64,000 nt of DNA from Alkalibacterium sp. (GTDB lineage Bacteria > Bacillota > Bacilli > Lactobacillales > Carnobacteriaceae_A): the NCBI GenBank assembly GCA_020832185.1, contig JAFIFE010000003.1, positions 1-64,000 of the forward strand, written 5' to 3'. Shown here in pieces: positions 56,009 through 62,049 of this stretch (within the stretch, counting starts at the first letter, position 1; each line of letters starts with the position of its first letter). Made by a program: the position numbers and the translations under genes. The notes beneath the pieces were generated by a model. That model did no database searches. It saw only the letters and a program-made list of their open reading frames with translations, and was not told the DNA's origin.

Positions 56009-56092
56009 ATGAATACACAAAAAAATAATTTAATGACCCCACAATTGAATCGTTATTACTTTAGCTTCTTTAGGAAAATCTATGGAGGCTAG
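56009..56092 (+). CDS. Tyr/Phe-rich leader peptide of the aro operon
   Basis: A 27-codon ORF with a good SD (GAGGAG, spacing 8). The second half reads RYYFSFFRKIYGG: Tyr at 16, 17 and 25, Phe at 18, 20 and 21; no Trp. A dense run of Tyr and Phe codons directly before an attenuator is the hallmark of a leader peptide whose translation measures charged tRNA-Tyr and tRNA-Phe. The stop codon lies within the first hairpin (56076-56133). Confidence 0.8.
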   Translation: MNTQKNNLMTPQLNRYYFSFFRKIYGG

Positions 56093-56245
56093 AGCACTTT
56101 AAGCTGTTTTCAAAACAGTGCCCCCATAGATTTCAGAAGAAATCGAATGGGCGCACACTTATAAAACTAAGCAACACTTTATATATGTGATTTTAACCAA
56201 CGCTGCATTCGATTATCTTAAAAAAAGATAACCGGGTGCAGCGTT
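56076..56245 (+). promoter_or_regulatory. Transcription attenuator (hairpin 1, antiterminator, terminator)
   Basis: Hairpin 1: 56076-56089 pairs with 56120-56133 (AAATCTATGG with CCATAGATTT plus GGC/GCC) and includes the last leader codons. Hairpin 2: GATTTC (56129) with GAAATC (56139). Terminator: AACGCTGCA (56199) and TTATCTT pair with AAGATAA and TGCAGCGTT (to 56245), followed by TTTGCTTT. Alternative antiterminator: AATCGAATG (56141-56149) is perfectly complementary to CATTCGATT (56206-56214), which is part of the terminator's left arm. Ribosome stalling at Tyr/Phe codons would open hairpin 1 and shift the balance. Confidence 0.75.
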
Positions 56246-56252
56246 TTGCTTT

Positions 56253-56631
56253 GTCCGTTAGAATTTTTAATTCTTACGGGCAAAGTATGAGAGGAGCAAA
56301 GCGACTGTCAATCCTCTATAAGTCTGTAGGAATTTTCAATTCCTTTACAGACACAATATCAGAGGAGCACAGCGACTGTAAATCCTTAAGAAGTCCGTAA
56401 TGATTTTCAATCATGTACGGATACAGTATAAGAGGAGCAACGCGACTGTTAATCCTTAAGAGGACTGTTAGAATTTTCAATTCTTACAGTCAAAGTATCA
56501 GAGGAGCGCAGCGACTGTGAGTCCTTAAGAAGTCCCTAATGATTTTCAATCATGTACGGATACAGTATAAGAGGAGCAAAGCGACTGTTAATCCTTAAGA
56601 AGACTGTTAGAATTTTCAATTTCTTACGGAC
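56253..56631 (+). repeat. Array of 5.5 tandem ~70-base structured repeats
   Basis: Units start at 56253, 56322, 56393, 56463, 56532 and 56602 (last one hairpin only). Each has a hairpin of ~30 bases with a TTT(C/T)A-type loop and then a constant block, AGAGGAGC-NNN-GCGACTGT, followed by AATCCTTAAGA-like spacer. Stem sequences differ between units (GTCCGT/ACGGGC, GTCTGTA/TACAGAC, GACTGT/ACAGTC; AGAATT, GGAATT or ATGATT in the upper stem) but pairing is kept, apart from single mismatches in units 5 and 6. It lies between the attenuator terminator and the first structural gene, so it is transcribed only on read-through. Confidence 0.8.
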
Positions 56632-56694
56632 AACCGATAAAAGGCAGTTGAACAACACTAACCATTCAAAACTAAAAGATTGGAGAGTTCAAAC

Positions 56695-56787
56695 ATGGAA
56701 GGTAGCAATGAAAGTGACTTTACCAAGCGACACCAGTGGAGGGGATTAGATGATTATTCACACGTTAGGGCCCGAAAGTACCGATAG
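56695..56787 (+). CDS. Possible 30-codon upstream ORF overlapping the BacA-like gene
   Basis: ATG at 56695 with TTGGAGAG 8 bases upstream, reading MEGSNESDFTKRHQWRGLDD... to a TAG at 56785. It overlaps the first 38 bases of the next gene in another frame. It may be a second leader/coupling ORF or chance. Confidence 0.3.
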   Translation: MEGSNESDFTKRHQWRGLDDYSHVRARKYR

Positions 56788-57307
56788 TTATGCGGCGGCC
56801 AAGACTTTACTCAATTCAGAAGAGGATGATATCGTTGGTTATCCATCCTTTGACACGATTTTACATCATCTCGAAGAGCTTAAAGGAGACTGTGTTTTAT
56901 TTCCCGTAGCTTTCCAGAGTGCACGGCGATCATATGGATGGAAAGAGTTCAATTATGATTATTGGGAAAACATCGAACTCATGCAGGTCTTTGCTAAAAA
57001 GACAAAACCGATGGTGCTGATCGAAAATAGCGCCAGACGAGAGAACAGCGCCATGATCCATCCGGCGACCACCATATTTTTGCAGAAGTATTTAAAGAAA
57101 GTAAAAGAAGACATTCCAATTACCTTTACTGACAGCAAGGTGAAAGCATGGACAGCCTTTCAGAACAAAGGATTAAAATACACGATTATTAGTGAAGATG
57201 TGTATGAAAAAGAAAAATGTAATGATTATCAGTTGATCGAGCGCTATGAACCAGAGATGGTCTGGTGCTTGTATAAAATAAAAAATGAAGAGGAGCAATT
57301 AAAATGA
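56750..57307 (+). CDS. BacA-like prephenate decarboxylase/dehydratase-family protein
   Basis: 185 residues. The N-terminal TLGPESTDSYAAAKTLL matches the prephenate dehydratase-fold start (TLGPEGTSSEYAAK in BacA). The middle segment ENIELMQVFAKKTKPMVLIE and the C-terminal YEPEMVWCLYKI also align by eye better with the bacilysin protein BacA than with PheA. The Thr-Arg-Phe triad of true prephenate dehydratases is not visible, and there is no ACT domain. It should bind prephenate. It heads the operon and its stop overlaps the aroF start (ATGA). Possible roles: prephenate decarboxylase, a divergent dehydratase supplying the missing PheA step, or a sensor. GGAGGGG precedes the ATG. Confidence 0.6.
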   Translation: MIIHTLGPESTDSYAAAKTLLNSEEDDIVGYPSFDTILHHLEELKGDCVLFPVAFQSARRSYGWKEFNYDYWENIELMQVFAKKTKPMVLIENSARRENSAMIHPATTIFLQKYLKKVKEDIPITFTDSKVKAWTAFQNKGLKYTIISEDVYEKEKCNDYQLIERYEPEMVWCLYKIKNEEEQLK

Positions 57308-58344
57308 TTATTGTATTAAAACAGGGAACAGGTTCAAAGGCGATTAAAGAAATTACAGAAAAAATAGAGGCACAGGGCGTATCGATCAGCCATTTTTCAG
57401 ATGTTAAACGTGACTTTCTTGGAGTGATCGGCGACACGACGGGTCTTGATGAGCATAGAATTCAGGCACGTCCAGAAGTTGAGAAAATCATCCGAGTGGA
57501 AGAACCTTACAAACGTGCGAACCGTAAATTCCATCCGGAGAATTCAGAAGTTCAAATCGGACAGGAAACCATCGGAGGGCACAAACTGGGTATTATCGCA
57601 GGTCCGTGTTCAGTGGAAAGTGAAGAGCAGATCATCAGAGTTGCCAAGCAAATCAAAAAAGCGGGTGCAAACTTCCTTCGTGGAGGAGCATTCAAGCCAA
57701 GAACGTCACCGTACAGCTTCCAGGGACTTGAACTTGAAGGGTTACGCATGCTGCAGGCGGCTAAAGCAGAAACAGGTTTACCGATTGTTACTGAACTGAT
57801 GTCAGTGAAATGGATAGACGAATTCGTCGAGTCAGTGGACATGATTCAAATCGGTGCACGTAACATGCAGAATTTTGACTTACTGAAAGAAGTAGGAAAA
57901 ACGAATACACCCGTTCTATTGAAGCGTGGCTTATCAGCAACCTACAAAGAATGGTTGATGTCAGCAGAATACATCATGTCTGAAGGAAACGAGAACGTCA
58001 TTTTATGTGAGCGCGGAATCAGAACGTTCGAACAAGGCACACGTAACACGCTGGATATTCAAGCTGTTCCAGTCATTAAAAAATTATCTCACTTGCCAAT
58101 CATCGTGGATCCAAGTCACGCCGGTGGCATGTCATACTTGGTTGAATCGGGCGCTAAATCGGGAATCGTTGCCGGTGCAGATGGTCTGATGATCGAGGTA
58201 CACAATGATCCTGAAAACGCATGGAGTGATGGCGAACAGTGCCTGACACCTGACGAGTTCGGTTTACTGATGGAGAAAGCTCAGAAACTTGCTGAAATAG
58301 AAGGTCGTTCAGTGCCATTGTCAACTGAAGTATCCACTCATTAA
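57304..58344 (+). CDS. aroF: 3-deoxy-7-phosphoheptulonate (DAHP) synthase
   Basis: 346 residues. An N-terminal ferredoxin-like regulatory domain (~1-75) is followed by the KDO8P/DAHP synthase barrel: GIIAGPCSVESEEQI, FLRGGAFKPRTSPYSFQG, IGARNMQNFDLL, LLKRGLSATYKEWL, and PSHAGG. This layout is the type I-beta enzyme of Firmicutes, often inhibited by chorismate or prephenate through the N-terminal domain. It catalyses the first shikimate step. It is coupled to the BacA-like gene upstream. Confidence 0.94.
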   Translation: MIIVLKQGTGSKAIKEITEKIEAQGVSISHFSDVKRDFLGVIGDTTGLDEHRIQARPEVEKIIRVEEPYKRANRKFHPENSEVQIGQETIGGHKLGIIAGPCSVESEEQIIRVAKQIKKAGANFLRGGAFKPRTSPYSFQGLELEGLRMLQAAKAETGLPIVTELMSVKWIDEFVESVDMIQIGARNMQNFDLLKEVGKTNTPVLLKRGLSATYKEWLMSAEYIMSEGNENVILCERGIRTFEQGTRNTLDIQAVPVIKKLSHLPIIVDPSHAGGMSYLVESGAKSGIVAGADGLMIEVHNDPENAWSDGEQCLTPDEFGLLMEKAQKLAEIEGRSVPLSTEVSTH

Positions 58345-58356
58345 GGAGTTAGCCAG

Positions 58357-59445
58357 ATGAATGACATTCAAGTTGAAGTACCTCAAGAAACAACTGAATA
58401 TGCGATAAAGATTCAAAAAGGACTGCTTCAGAATGTGGGGGAAGAACTATCAGCAATCACCAGCAGCAGACGTGTGGCCGTGGTAACGGATAAGAATGTT
58501 CATCAGCATTATGGTGAAACAGTCGACACGCAATTAAAACGCGCTGGTTTTACAGTTCATTTCATCATTTTAGAGCCGGGAGAGCAGACGAAGACATTTT
58601 CATCGATGCCTGCCATGTACAGTGAACTGATCAATGCGGGAATCACAAGAAGTGATGTGATTGTTGCTTTAGGCGGAGGCGTCGTCGGAGACATTGCTGG
58701 CTTTGTTGCAGCCACATTTCTGAGAGGGATCGATTTTGTTCAAATCCCGACGTCTTTGCTGGCTCAAGTAGACAGCAGTGTGGGAGGCAAAGTAGGGGTC
58801 GATCTGCCGGAAGGAAAAAATCTGGCAGGCGCCTTTTATCATCCTAAACTGGTCATCATCGATCCGGATGTCTTAAATACCTTGTCTGACCATTACTTCT
58901 CAGATGGGATGGCCGAAGTCATTAAATACGGCTGCATTAAGGACGCATCGTTTTTTGACAAACTGACTCAGCTCAATTCCAGAGAAAAGGTCATGGCTGA
59001 GATCGAAAACGTCATCGAGACCTGCTGTAAAATCAAGCAGGATATGGTCCAGCAGGATGAAAAAGATAAAGGTATCCGCATGCTTTTAAATTTTGGACAC
59101 ACTCTGGGTCATGCGATCGAAGCGTATTACAATTATGAATCGATTACTCATGGGCATGCCGTGGCAATCGGAATGGTCACTTTAACGGCTATCGCAGAAG
59201 AAAAAGGACTCACTGAAAAAGGAACCGCTGAGAAGGTAAGACGCTGTCTGTCTGGACATAATCTTCCAGCTGAACTGGACGAACCTGAAGCGTATGACTT
59301 TATATTATCCTATATAAAAAAAGACAAGAAGCAGTTAAACAACCAGTTACATGTAGTTATTATAGAAACGATCGGACAAGCCGCTACCTATAAGACCGGT
59401 ATCGGGTTCTTTGATCAATTGACAACGGGAGGACAGATCACGTGA
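58357..59445 (+). CDS. aroB: 3-dehydroquinate synthase
   Basis: 362 residues. NAD-binding and substrate motifs: EPGEQTKTF, GGGVVGDIAGFVAATFLRGI, PTSLLAQVDSSVGGKVGVD, and zinc-ligand segments EVIKYG, NFGHTLGHAIE and HGHAVAIGM. It makes 3-dehydroquinate. AAGGAG precedes the ATG, 12 bases after aroF. Its stop overlaps the aroA start (GTGA). Confidence 0.95.
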   Translation: MNDIQVEVPQETTEYAIKIQKGLLQNVGEELSAITSSRRVAVVTDKNVHQHYGETVDTQLKRAGFTVHFIILEPGEQTKTFSSMPAMYSELINAGITRSDVIVALGGGVVGDIAGFVAATFLRGIDFVQIPTSLLAQVDSSVGGKVGVDLPEGKNLAGAFYHPKLVIIDPDVLNTLSDHYFSDGMAEVIKYGCIKDASFFDKLTQLNSREKVMAEIENVIETCCKIKQDMVQQDEKDKGIRMLLNFGHTLGHAIEAYYNYESITHGHAVAIGMVTLTAIAEEKGLTEKGTAEKVRRCLSGHNLPAELDEPEAYDFILSYIKKDKKQLNNQLHVVIIETIGQAATYKTGIGFFDQLTTGGQIT

Positions 59446-60704
59446 CGCATTTACAACTTGAACCAGGAAAAATAGCGGGTACAGTCACTGTACCTCCTTC
59501 AAAAAGCTTAGCACACCGGGCAATCATTTGTGCCGGTCTGGCAGATGGACACAGTACGGTCCGCAATATTCAGTATTCTGATGATATTAAAGCAACCATT
59601 CAAGGCTTACGTGCCATGGGAGCGGAGATTACAGAAGAGAGGGACTCTGTCATTATCGACGGAATCGGTCTGAATGGGCGAGGGTCAATTCAAGCGGATC
59701 ACTCATCGCGAACGATCGACTGCAATGAATCCGGTTCTACCCTTCGGTTTTTAGTGCCAGTGGCTACCTTGTTTGAAGGGAAGACGCGTTTTGTTGGAAG
59801 AGGAAAGCTCGGGAAGCGTCCGCTCACTCCTTTTGAAGACTTGTTCAATTCACAAGGATTGCTCTTTGCCACGACAAACACTGATACGTTAGATTTAACG
59901 GTAGAAGGACCGCTTGCACCAGAAGCAGTTGAACTGCGTGGTGATATCAGCTCACAGTTCATTACAGGCTTGTTGATGACTCTGCCGTTCTTAGACGGCG
60001 ATTCTGCAATCAAAGTAACGACACCTCTTGAATCTAAAGGCTATATCGATTTAACGCTTGATGTATTTAAAGCATTTGGACTGACAATTCATGTAGAAGA
60101 AGACGGTCAGCTGTATAACATTCCAGGGAACCAGTCGATCAAAGCAGTGGACTATACAGTCGAAGGGGATTACTCTCAAGCAGCCTTTTTCCTGAGTGCA
60201 AATGCATTAGGGAATACACTTGATATCAGCGGCCTGAATGAACAGTCACTTCAAGGAGATAAAGCGATCCTGTCAATTTTAGATACACTGAAGCAAGATA
60301 CGCATCGAGTCATAGACGGGTCTCAGTGTCCGGATATTATTCCAGTGGCTGCATTAGTGGCTTCATTAAGTGAAGGAAGTACGCGTATTGAAAATCTTGA
60401 ACGTCTGCGAATCAAAGAAAGCGACAGACTGGAAGCAACTCAACGTGAACTCGAAGCGATTGGTGCAGATATACAAATAGAAGGAAACGACTTAGTCATC
60501 CAGGGGGTGTCCTCGTTAAAAGGAGGCGCAACAGTCTGGAGTCATAAAGATCACCGTATGGCCATGATGCTGGCGATCGCTTCTACACGCTGCGAAGAAC
60601 CGATCATCATTAAAGACACGGAATGTGTCGCAAAATCATACCCGGATTTCTGGGACGTATTTAAAACATTAGGAGGAACAATCAATGAGCGGCATTTGGG
60701 GTAA
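59442..60704 (+). CDS. aroA: EPSP synthase (3-phosphoshikimate 1-carboxyvinyltransferase)
   Basis: 420 residues. PPSKSLAHRAIICAGLADG at the N-terminus, NESGSTLRFLVPVA, GRGKLGKRPLTPFEDL, DISSQFITGLL, the catalytic DYSQAAFFL and RLRIKESDRL. Two inside-out alpha/beta domains are expected. The start is GTG within the overlap with aroB. It overlaps aroC by 20 bases. Confidence 0.95.
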   Translation: MTHLQLEPGKIAGTVTVPPSKSLAHRAIICAGLADGHSTVRNIQYSDDIKATIQGLRAMGAEITEERDSVIIDGIGLNGRGSIQADHSSRTIDCNESGSTLRFLVPVATLFEGKTRFVGRGKLGKRPLTPFEDLFNSQGLLFATTNTDTLDLTVEGPLAPEAVELRGDISSQFITGLLMTLPFLDGDSAIKVTTPLESKGYIDLTLDVFKAFGLTIHVEEDGQLYNIPGNQSIKAVDYTVEGDYSQAAFFLSANALGNTLDISGLNEQSLQGDKAILSILDTLKQDTHRVIDGSQCPDIIPVAALVASLSEGSTRIENLERLRIKESDRLEATQRELEAIGADIQIEGNDLVIQGVSSLKGGATVWSHKDHRMAMMLAIASTRCEEPIIIKDTECVAKSYPDFWDVFKTLGGTINERHLG

Positions 60705-61773
60705 AAACCTAGAACTATCATTATTTGGAGAATCACATGGGGACGCGATAGGCATAACGATCAACGGCTTAACACCAGGACTTGAAATCGATATGGATAA
60801 AGTTCTAGTCGAGATGGCCAGGCGTGCACCAGGGTCTAGTGAATTAACGACCCCTCGGAAAGAAAAAGATCTGCCTGAGATTTTGAGTGGATTTTTAGAT
60901 GGAAAAACAACTGGGGCACCTTTGACTGCCATCATCCGAAATACAAATACGCGGTCAAAAGATTACAGTTTGCTGAAAGATGTTATGCGTCCGGGACAGG
61001 CCGATTACCCGGGGCGAATGAGATACAAAGGACACAATGACCACAGAGGAAGTGGACACTTTTCAGGTCGAATCACAGCACCGATCGTGTTTGCCGGAGC
61101 GATCTGTAAACAGTGGCTCGAACAAAAGGGTGTAACGATCGGGTCTCACATACAATCTATCGGAGCAATTGAAGACGAACGCTTTTCAGATCAGACAGAA
61201 GTAACCCTGGAACAGGTCGAAGCGTTCAAAAATGAGCAGCTGCCCCTTTTTAATGAAGAGAAGAAGCAGGCTATTCATGACTTAATTATAGAGGCCAAAG
61301 ACGAAGGCGATTCAGTAGGAGGCGTCGTTGAAACGTTTGTCCTGGGCATTCCAGCAGGTTATGGTAACCCGTTCTTTGATTCAGTCGAATCGACGCTGGC
61401 TCACTTGGTGTTCTCCGTTCCTGCTATCAAAGGAATAGAATTTGGAACAGGGTTTGATATCACGAAACTTAAAGGCTCTGAAGCCAACGATGAGTACTAC
61501 TACGATGAGAATAATGAAATCAAAACGCGTTCTAATAATAATGGGGGGATCATCGGCGGCATCACATACGGCATGCCGATCGTCTTCAGATCAGCGGTTA
61601 AACCCCCTGCTTCGATCAAGAAAAAACAGCAGACCATTAATATTAAAGAAGGTAAGAATGCTGAACTTGAAGTAGAGGGACGTCATGATCCCTGTATCGT
61701 TCCCAGAGTTCTCCCTGTTTTGGAAGCCGTAACGGCTATTGGACTCACAGATCTGATGCTTGGAGGAAGTTAA
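60685..61773 (+). CDS. aroC: Chorismate synthase
   Basis: 362 residues. It starts with GIWGKNLELSLFGESHGDAIG and has GHNDHRGSGHFSGRITA and RHDPCIVPRVLPVLEAV, all FMN/EPSP-binding signatures. It makes chorismate. The ATG has AGGAGG upstream inside the aroA coding sequence. Confidence 0.96.
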   Translation: MSGIWGKNLELSLFGESHGDAIGITINGLTPGLEIDMDKVLVEMARRAPGSSELTTPRKEKDLPEILSGFLDGKTTGAPLTAIIRNTNTRSKDYSLLKDVMRPGQADYPGRMRYKGHNDHRGSGHFSGRITAPIVFAGAICKQWLEQKGVTIGSHIQSIGAIEDERFSDQTEVTLEQVEAFKNEQLPLFNEEKKQAIHDLIIEAKDEGDSVGGVVETFVLGIPAGYGNPFFDSVESTLAHLVFSVPAIKGIEFGTGFDITKLKGSEANDEYYYDENNEIKTRSNNNGGIIGGITYGMPIVFRSAVKPPASIKKKQQTINIKEGKNAELEVEGRHDPCIVPRVLPVLEAVTAIGLTDLMLGGS

Positions 61774-62049
61774 ATGAGTGAACTGGATGGGTACAGAAAT
61801 GATATCGATGCAATTGATCAGGAATTGACCACTTTATTTGAAAAACGGCTTGAGACGGTACTGAAGGTAGGTGAATATAAGAAGAGGCATGACCTGCCAA
61901 TTCTTGATTCCAGCCGTGAAAAAGCGGTCATCGAGAAGAATATCGACCGGCTGAAAAATAAAGCGTATCAGGAAGAAGTGTCAGAGTTTTACAAAGCACT
62001 GATGGCGATCACCAGAGGCACCCAGCAGAAACTGATGGATGAAGAATAA
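61774..62049 (+). CDS. Chorismate mutase (AroQ class, monofunctional)
   Basis: 91 residues, all-helical AroQ fold: YRNDIDAIDQELTTLFEKR, VGEYKKRHDLPILDSSRE, and the C-terminal Q in ITRGTQQKL. Arg and Lys active-site residues are at expected places. It converts chorismate to prephenate, the substrate of TyrA and probably of the BacA-like protein. It starts right after the aroC stop and ends the operon. Confidence 0.9.
   Translation: MSELDGYRNDIDAIDQELTTLFEKRLETVLKVGEYKKRHDLPILDSSREKAVIEKNIDRLKNKAYQEEVSEFYKALMAITRGTQQKLMDEE

Follow-up and report, generated by a model that had tools for sequence, protein, structure and literature searches.

The window, the whole stretch of 64,000 nucleotides from an Alkalibacterium sp. 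contig analysed here, contains an aromatic biosynthesis (aro) operon on its plus strand. The operon is preceded by a Tyr/Phe-rich leader peptide (MNTQKNNLMTPQLNRYYFSFFRKIYGG, translated from 56009..56092) and by an attenuator terminator hairpin followed by UUUUGCUUU (56199..56245; fold −26.8 kcal/mol, z −6.4), which is absent from the list returned by the consensus terminator scan. A similar reading frame can be seen at the nucleotide level in the aro leaders of relatives, except in L087, whose record starts later; L092 and L093 lay outside this comparison. The first operon gene (56750..57307) encodes a protein of 185 aa that is matched by no Pfam or NCBIfam model and whose start we take to resemble prephenate dehydratase; the gene is conserved in Alkalibacterium, Marinilactibacillus, Desemzia and Carnobacterium. 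It is followed by genes for DAHP synthase (57304..58344; PRK08673, TIGR01361) and for DHQ synthase, EPSP synthase, chorismate synthase and chorismate mutase (58357..62049; Pfam). A scan of viral contigs with the DAHP synthase returned four distant relatives, which have no bearing on the array described below.

Positions 56253-56631, between the attenuator and the first gene, hold five units of ~70 nt followed by a sixth, degenerate hairpin, in agreement with an earlier note on this DNA as to both number and placement. Tandem Repeats Finder reports a period of 70 with 5.4 copies at 56253-56632 and a second period of 139 with 2.5 copies; the latter points to a duplication of two units together within part of the array. 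Within each unit, a short linker resembling ANAGUA connects hairpin 1 with hairpin 2. In unit 1 (56247..56310; covariance model match 56253-56310), which has the linker AAAGUA, the 5' arm of hairpin 1 overlaps the U-tract of the terminator, with UGCUUUG paired with CAAAGUA in the predicted fold. Unit 2 (56322..56381), unit 3 (56393..56451), unit 4 (56463..56520) and unit 5 (56532..56590) were likewise identified by model matches and folding, unit 4 being the top-scoring one (E 2.7e-19, as a member of the model's own training set) and unit 5 having one broken pair in hairpin 1. The array ends with a degenerate hairpin 1 (56602..56631), which lies in a weak model match (56602-56650, E 0.006).

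No Rfam family matches the array at gathering scores, and the 861-nt stretch searched yielded five weak matches at E<=5, which were taken for chance. This is in line with the earlier statement that the array fits no known riboswitch or T-box. A CRISPR pattern, also dismissed in that note, is not indicated either, as the whole ~70-nt period repeats, including the stretches between hairpins. On the minus strand (56284-56591), four units contain promoter-like TTAACA, TTGACA or TTTACA motifs followed by TATACT, CATACT or GATATT. An antisense promoter was considered and rejected, since the five minus-strand scan rows in these four units rely on base pairs of hairpin 2 that elsewhere are exchanged for others.

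Structure and covariation of the repeat unit

Hairpin 2 consists, in order, of three pairs, a mismatch (G.G in 32/50 distinct rows), two pairs, a tandem G.A, two further pairs and a small loop. The tandem G.A is reflected in a loose GA-NN-loop-NN-GA pattern that fits 51/53 rows. The array stretch folds far better than 100 shuffled sequences (z −7.8), and single units give z scores from −6.5 to −1.2, unit 5 being the weakest; the fold of the sixth hairpin is no better than that of shuffles (z −1.05).

The joint changes in both stem arms described in the earlier note (GTCTGTA/TACAGAC versus GACTGT/ACAGTC) are real in the window units, and its proposal of a selected structure is supported by covariation in two sets of units. 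Among 13 units, taken from the window, from its relatives and from two sites that precede tpiA, 10/17 pairs show two-sided change, with a covariation score of 0.391 compared with 0.160 after shuffling; this alignment was made without structure, although the structure itself was picked by inspecting those sequences. In 50 distinct rows found by the model, two-sided change extends to 15/17 pairs and the score rises to 0.644 (0.183 shuffled; at most 0.099 for slid structures), in an alignment that was fitted to the structure and hence leans towards it. The mere number of two-sided pairs in the 50-row set was equalled by 71/500 shuffles, whereas its cells, pair types and score were reached by 0/500. 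G-U cells outnumber A-C cells by 20:5 and 31:2 in the model-found sets, which are biased by the model itself, and by 10:7 in the first 13, aro-centred units. As the two kinds of cell are about equally frequent in the aro-centred set, the units give no indication of folding as RNA in preference to DNA.

Two other features emphasized in the earlier note proved to be less general. The combination AGAGGAGC-NNN-GCGACTGT, described there as constant, is identical in 5/5 window units but variable in relatives. The SD-like GAGGAG, on which a ribosome-trapping role had been based, is not retained in Marinilactibacillus or in the Listeriaceae-like copies examined, and the idea of a ribosome trap or SD decoy was therefore abandoned.

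Distribution of units in aro leaders and at other loci

In Alkalibacterium and Marinilactibacillus, the aro attenuator is followed by one to five units. Alkalibacterium olivapovliticus and Alkalibacterium strain AK22 have two units each, and the metagenome-assembled genome LCM1.Bin64 has two units and a partial one. Three Marinilactibacillus records contain one or two units plus a part, with a different sequence and the same two hairpins, while a fourth record starts inside the array. In the same leader of Marinilactibacillus piezotolerans Marseille-P2378 (L088, about 2080-2450), a second, unrelated tandem array with a period of ~50-55 nt was noticed by eye between the units and the first gene. 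No units were found at the orthologous site in the aro leaders of A. pelagium, A. thalassium, Desemzia and Carnobacterium jeotgali. Correspondingly, the distance from terminator to ATG is 33 nt in Carnobacterium and Desemzia, 105 nt in A. pelagium and A. thalassium and 502 nt in the window. Orthologous aro sites thus differ in the presence or absence of units, a difference that is compatible with gain as well as with loss. The first operon gene is present in 6/12 Alkalibacterium genomes; two genomes without it (G005 and G008) have one unit between pgk and tpiA, as judged from genes read by eye.

A search of related genomes with a covariance model, as suggested in the earlier note, returned matches at many unrelated loci beyond the aro genes. 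Model R1 was built from the 13 units and model R2 from 53 rows, both seeded from aro units; the scans covered genomes of the order only. R1 matches 57/198 relatives at a loose limit (E<=0.1). R2 matches 15/40 close relatives and 17/36 genomes of family f7 (both E<=1e-3), and 41/295 genomes of the order (E<=1e-4) in families f1, f2, f5, f7 and f8. Family f7 is taken as Listeriaceae on account of the Listeria sRNAs sbrA and rli28, which Rfam identifies there, and the order as Lactobacillales on the basis of the named kin. The unit occurs at five sites in one Alkalibacterium genome, and 25 matches were counted in one Listeriaceae-like genome. The random scatter between genes that the earlier note had regarded as speaking against its interpretation is therefore seen in relatives but not in the window's own genome, where strong matching is confined to the aro array and the remaining matches are weak.

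Some of the dispersed copies are parts of larger elements. Many similar copies were identified in G130, G010 and a genus of family f5 (g36), some of them inside larger elements with arms. One f5 genome contains 17 matches, several of which are equal in score, and the ten examined sit inside a larger composite element. Part of one such composite is matched in 11/12 genomes of the window's genus; the window's genome itself has a full and a partial match, both outside the window. By eye, a ~200-250-bp composite (L217-L234 and L061) has similar arms, CTAGC...AGATAAAT, that flank the hairpin units, and it seems to be common to the f5 genus and Alkalibacterium, with the reading direction reversed between them. 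With respect to a comparison with MITEs, arms were seen by eye around dispersed copies, with matches in the window's genus, and none were noticed around the aro array. An element at the 3' end of rpsI was rejected as a separate candidate, since its rpsI-like upstream stretch recurs beside other genes and is taken as part of a repeat subfamily. A search of plasmid DNA with the window array and one f5 copy gave no match.

Association with terminators and attenuators

To describe the surroundings of the units, 140 hits from 100 loci were reduced to 111 sites, with hits less than 60 nt apart merged and identical copies and sites with less than 60 nt upstream dropped. A T-run with a hairpin lies directly upstream of 41/111 of these sites at a limit of −6 kcal/mol and of 35/111, by hand count, at −9 kcal/mol. 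After merging of sites with shared flanks and removal of sites near an end, 69 sites remained, mainly from family f7. A terminator-like hairpin adjoins 24 of these at −9 kcal/mol compared with 21 of 315 controls (p 7e-9), and 26 compared with 53/315 at −6 kcal/mol (p 2e-4). The controls are intergenic positions with the TTGYTK start of the unit, and the p-values are approximate, as controls were cleared of identical upstream stretches only, unlike the merged sites. Terminators on the opposite strand at the 3' end are rare (1/69 at −9 and 4/69 at −6). Multi-unit sites adjoin a terminator in 10/16 cases at −6 kcal/mol. About two thirds of the sites (45/69) have no terminator at the −9 limit.

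Orientation was compared for 51 of 94 merged sites, after exclusion of six inside crude ORF calls, ten lacking one neighbour and 27 with convergent or divergent neighbours. Among these sites with co-directional neighbours, 37 units are in sense and 14 in antisense orientation (p 0.002). The bias would fit terminator adjacency as well as an RNA function, and the 14 antisense sites speak against an obligatory role in sense orientation.

Several of the upstream terminators belong to known regulatory leaders. At gathering scores, 13/57 distinct loci have an Rfam T-box leader that precedes the unit on the same strand by 21-44 nt (7/20, 1/20 and 5/20 loci per scan, with three loci scanned twice). 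This is not a rate, as many loci of the second and third scans were picked for a terminator upstream of the unit, and a single orthologous site (serS) seems to account for eight of the 13. T-box loci of serS, tyrS, ileS and a gene for a hexapeptide-repeat protein (L116), which we take to be cysE, contain two tandem units 67-75 nt apart and 21-40 nt behind the leader in Listeriaceae-like genomes; the serS, tyrS and ileS names were each assigned by model at one locus. In genome G039, three of the five unit sites are T-box leaders, although only 14 T-boxes were counted there. Furthermore, one unit, located 147 nt downstream of a TPP leader and behind the leader's terminator, precedes a TENA-family (tenA-like) gene, and 13 nt separate the end of an L10 leader from a more weakly matched unit, in which mainly hairpin 2 is recognized (L044). 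Additional units follow the terminators of hup, secG (named by eye) and sbrA. At five Listeriaceae-like loci (L136, L138, L148, L181 and L210), the unit lies directly behind the sbrA sRNA terminator.

The position of the array in an aro leader could suggest an array of ligand- or tRNA-sensing riboswitches for aromatic amino acids. We consider this very improbable, as the units sit after the terminator and not before it, the array itself lacks an Rfam match, and the same unit precedes serS, tyrS, ileS, the tenA-like gene and many unrelated genes. The T-box, TPP and L10-leader loci likewise argue against the role tied to aro genes that the earlier note had considered.

The attenuators among these loci are better accommodated by a selected cis-acting RNA module, which could protect or process the new 5' region of a read-through transcript or recruit a protein and thereby set the yield of antiterminated mRNA, with tandem copies tuning the dose. 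The units behind T-box leaders, the TPP-leader terminator, the L10 leader and the aro attenuator are consistent with such a module, as are the share of T-box leaders among the G039 sites, the frequent terminators at multi-unit sites and the sense bias. At the leader of a MutS-domain gene, moreover, comparison of G039 with G197 by eye indicates that the structure is kept while both arms change. Because units persist behind attenuators and can change in both arms at one and the same locus, this explanation stays in contention as a rival. We nevertheless regard it as rather doubtful, considering that many copies follow ordinary terminators, at gene ends or of sRNAs (hup, secG and sbrA), or lie away from any terminator, that 14/51 co-directional sites are antisense, that the same leader lacks units in two species of Alkalibacterium, and that G-U and A-C cells are similarly frequent in the aro-centred set. 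A broader version is comparably tentative: a general post-attenuator RNA module of several families, consisting of the two-hairpin unit with its G.G and tandem G.A pairs in single or tandem form, might act directly behind T-box, leader-peptide, TPP and ribosomal-protein attenuators on antiterminated transcripts only, having been exapted from the dispersed repeat or having seeded it.

Alternatively, the hairpins might be recognized on one strand of single-stranded DNA by a transposase or replication enzyme, as for REP/IS200-like elements, with terminators serving as hot spots that also expose hairpins. Conserved mismatches within the stems, dispersal as copies and the same-strand position behind T-tracts would agree with such a substrate, which we consider unlikely overall.

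A dispersed structured repeat and its relation to known systems

Rather than a Tyr/Phe sensor, the array is probably a structured repeat of the BOX/REP kind, non-autonomous and prone to settle behind terminators, that has expanded in tandem at this locus. We consider this the best reading because of the dispersal of copies, the composites with arms, the sites without units and the change in tandem copy number. Like BOX/REP-like repeats, the units combine unrelated intergenic loci (in relatives), conserved stem-loops and presence or absence at orthologous sites, and the BOX-like repeat is the best supported of the explanations offered in the earlier note, given the many unrelated loci in relatives. 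Copies are dispersed between genes and enriched just behind the U-tract of intrinsic terminators, including attenuators, where they would be transcribed upon read-through only; we hypothesize that they spread by copying and that unit number drifts through tandem duplication and loss. At the aro locus, only an antiterminated transcript would contain the array, which would place ~380 nt of hairpin-rich spacer before the first gene. Sensing of Tyr/Phe by the array would be improbable, and any effect on the operon would presumably be weak and a by-product on mRNA stability or read-through.

Some observations fit a dispersed repeat less well. A recent source copy cannot be seen in the window's genome, where nothing but the aro array matches strongly. 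Units are found at the same leader position in two genera, and their structure is kept at one orthologous Listeriaceae-like site, neither of which would be needed for decaying mobile repeats. The sense bias (37 versus 14) and the 45/69 sites lacking a terminator at −9 kcal/mol also argue against it.

Members of the structured repeat family occur in at least five families of the order, the array is matched by no Rfam model, and the placement directly behind terminators, some of which are attenuators, is a testable rule. Should the units prove relevant to the read-through mRNA, they would constitute a second control layer common to unrelated attenuators. If not, they would exemplify dispersed repeats exploiting terminators and serve as a warning that covarying leader hairpins need not be a sensor.

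Among the matches listed from open-licence literature, mostly titles and the beginnings of abstracts, there was no account of the unit in Lactobacillales. T-box leaders (RF00230) share loci with the units, which follow some T-box terminators, while the array itself matches no family. REP/BIME elements of Enterobacteria are described as dispersed extragenic palindromes, with BIMEs reused as attenuators (PMC2965389); by this description, they resemble the units in being dispersed and extragenic and differ in host group. Efa-1 of Enterococcus faecalis is an intergenic repeat of 163 bp with a predicted pair of adjacent stem-loops (PMC2267715). Compared by description only, it shares the intergenic position and the two adjacent hairpins, and by analogy Efa-1 repeats may be relatives of the two-hairpin unit. 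The BOX element of S. pneumoniae is a dispersed intergenic structured repeat with the organization boxA-boxB(n)-boxC (PMC3049150). The abstract of that article judges these repeats parasitic, and its text describes a BOX with two B modules between both trp T-boxes and co-transcribed with them. This trp-operon BOX provides a precedent for a repeat at attenuators. As far as these descriptions go, BOX and the array have in common a dispersed, intergenic and structured repeat with a tandem inner module of variable copy number, whereas the unit described here is set apart by its two hairpins within ~70 nt, its occurrence in several families and its frequent position next to terminators.
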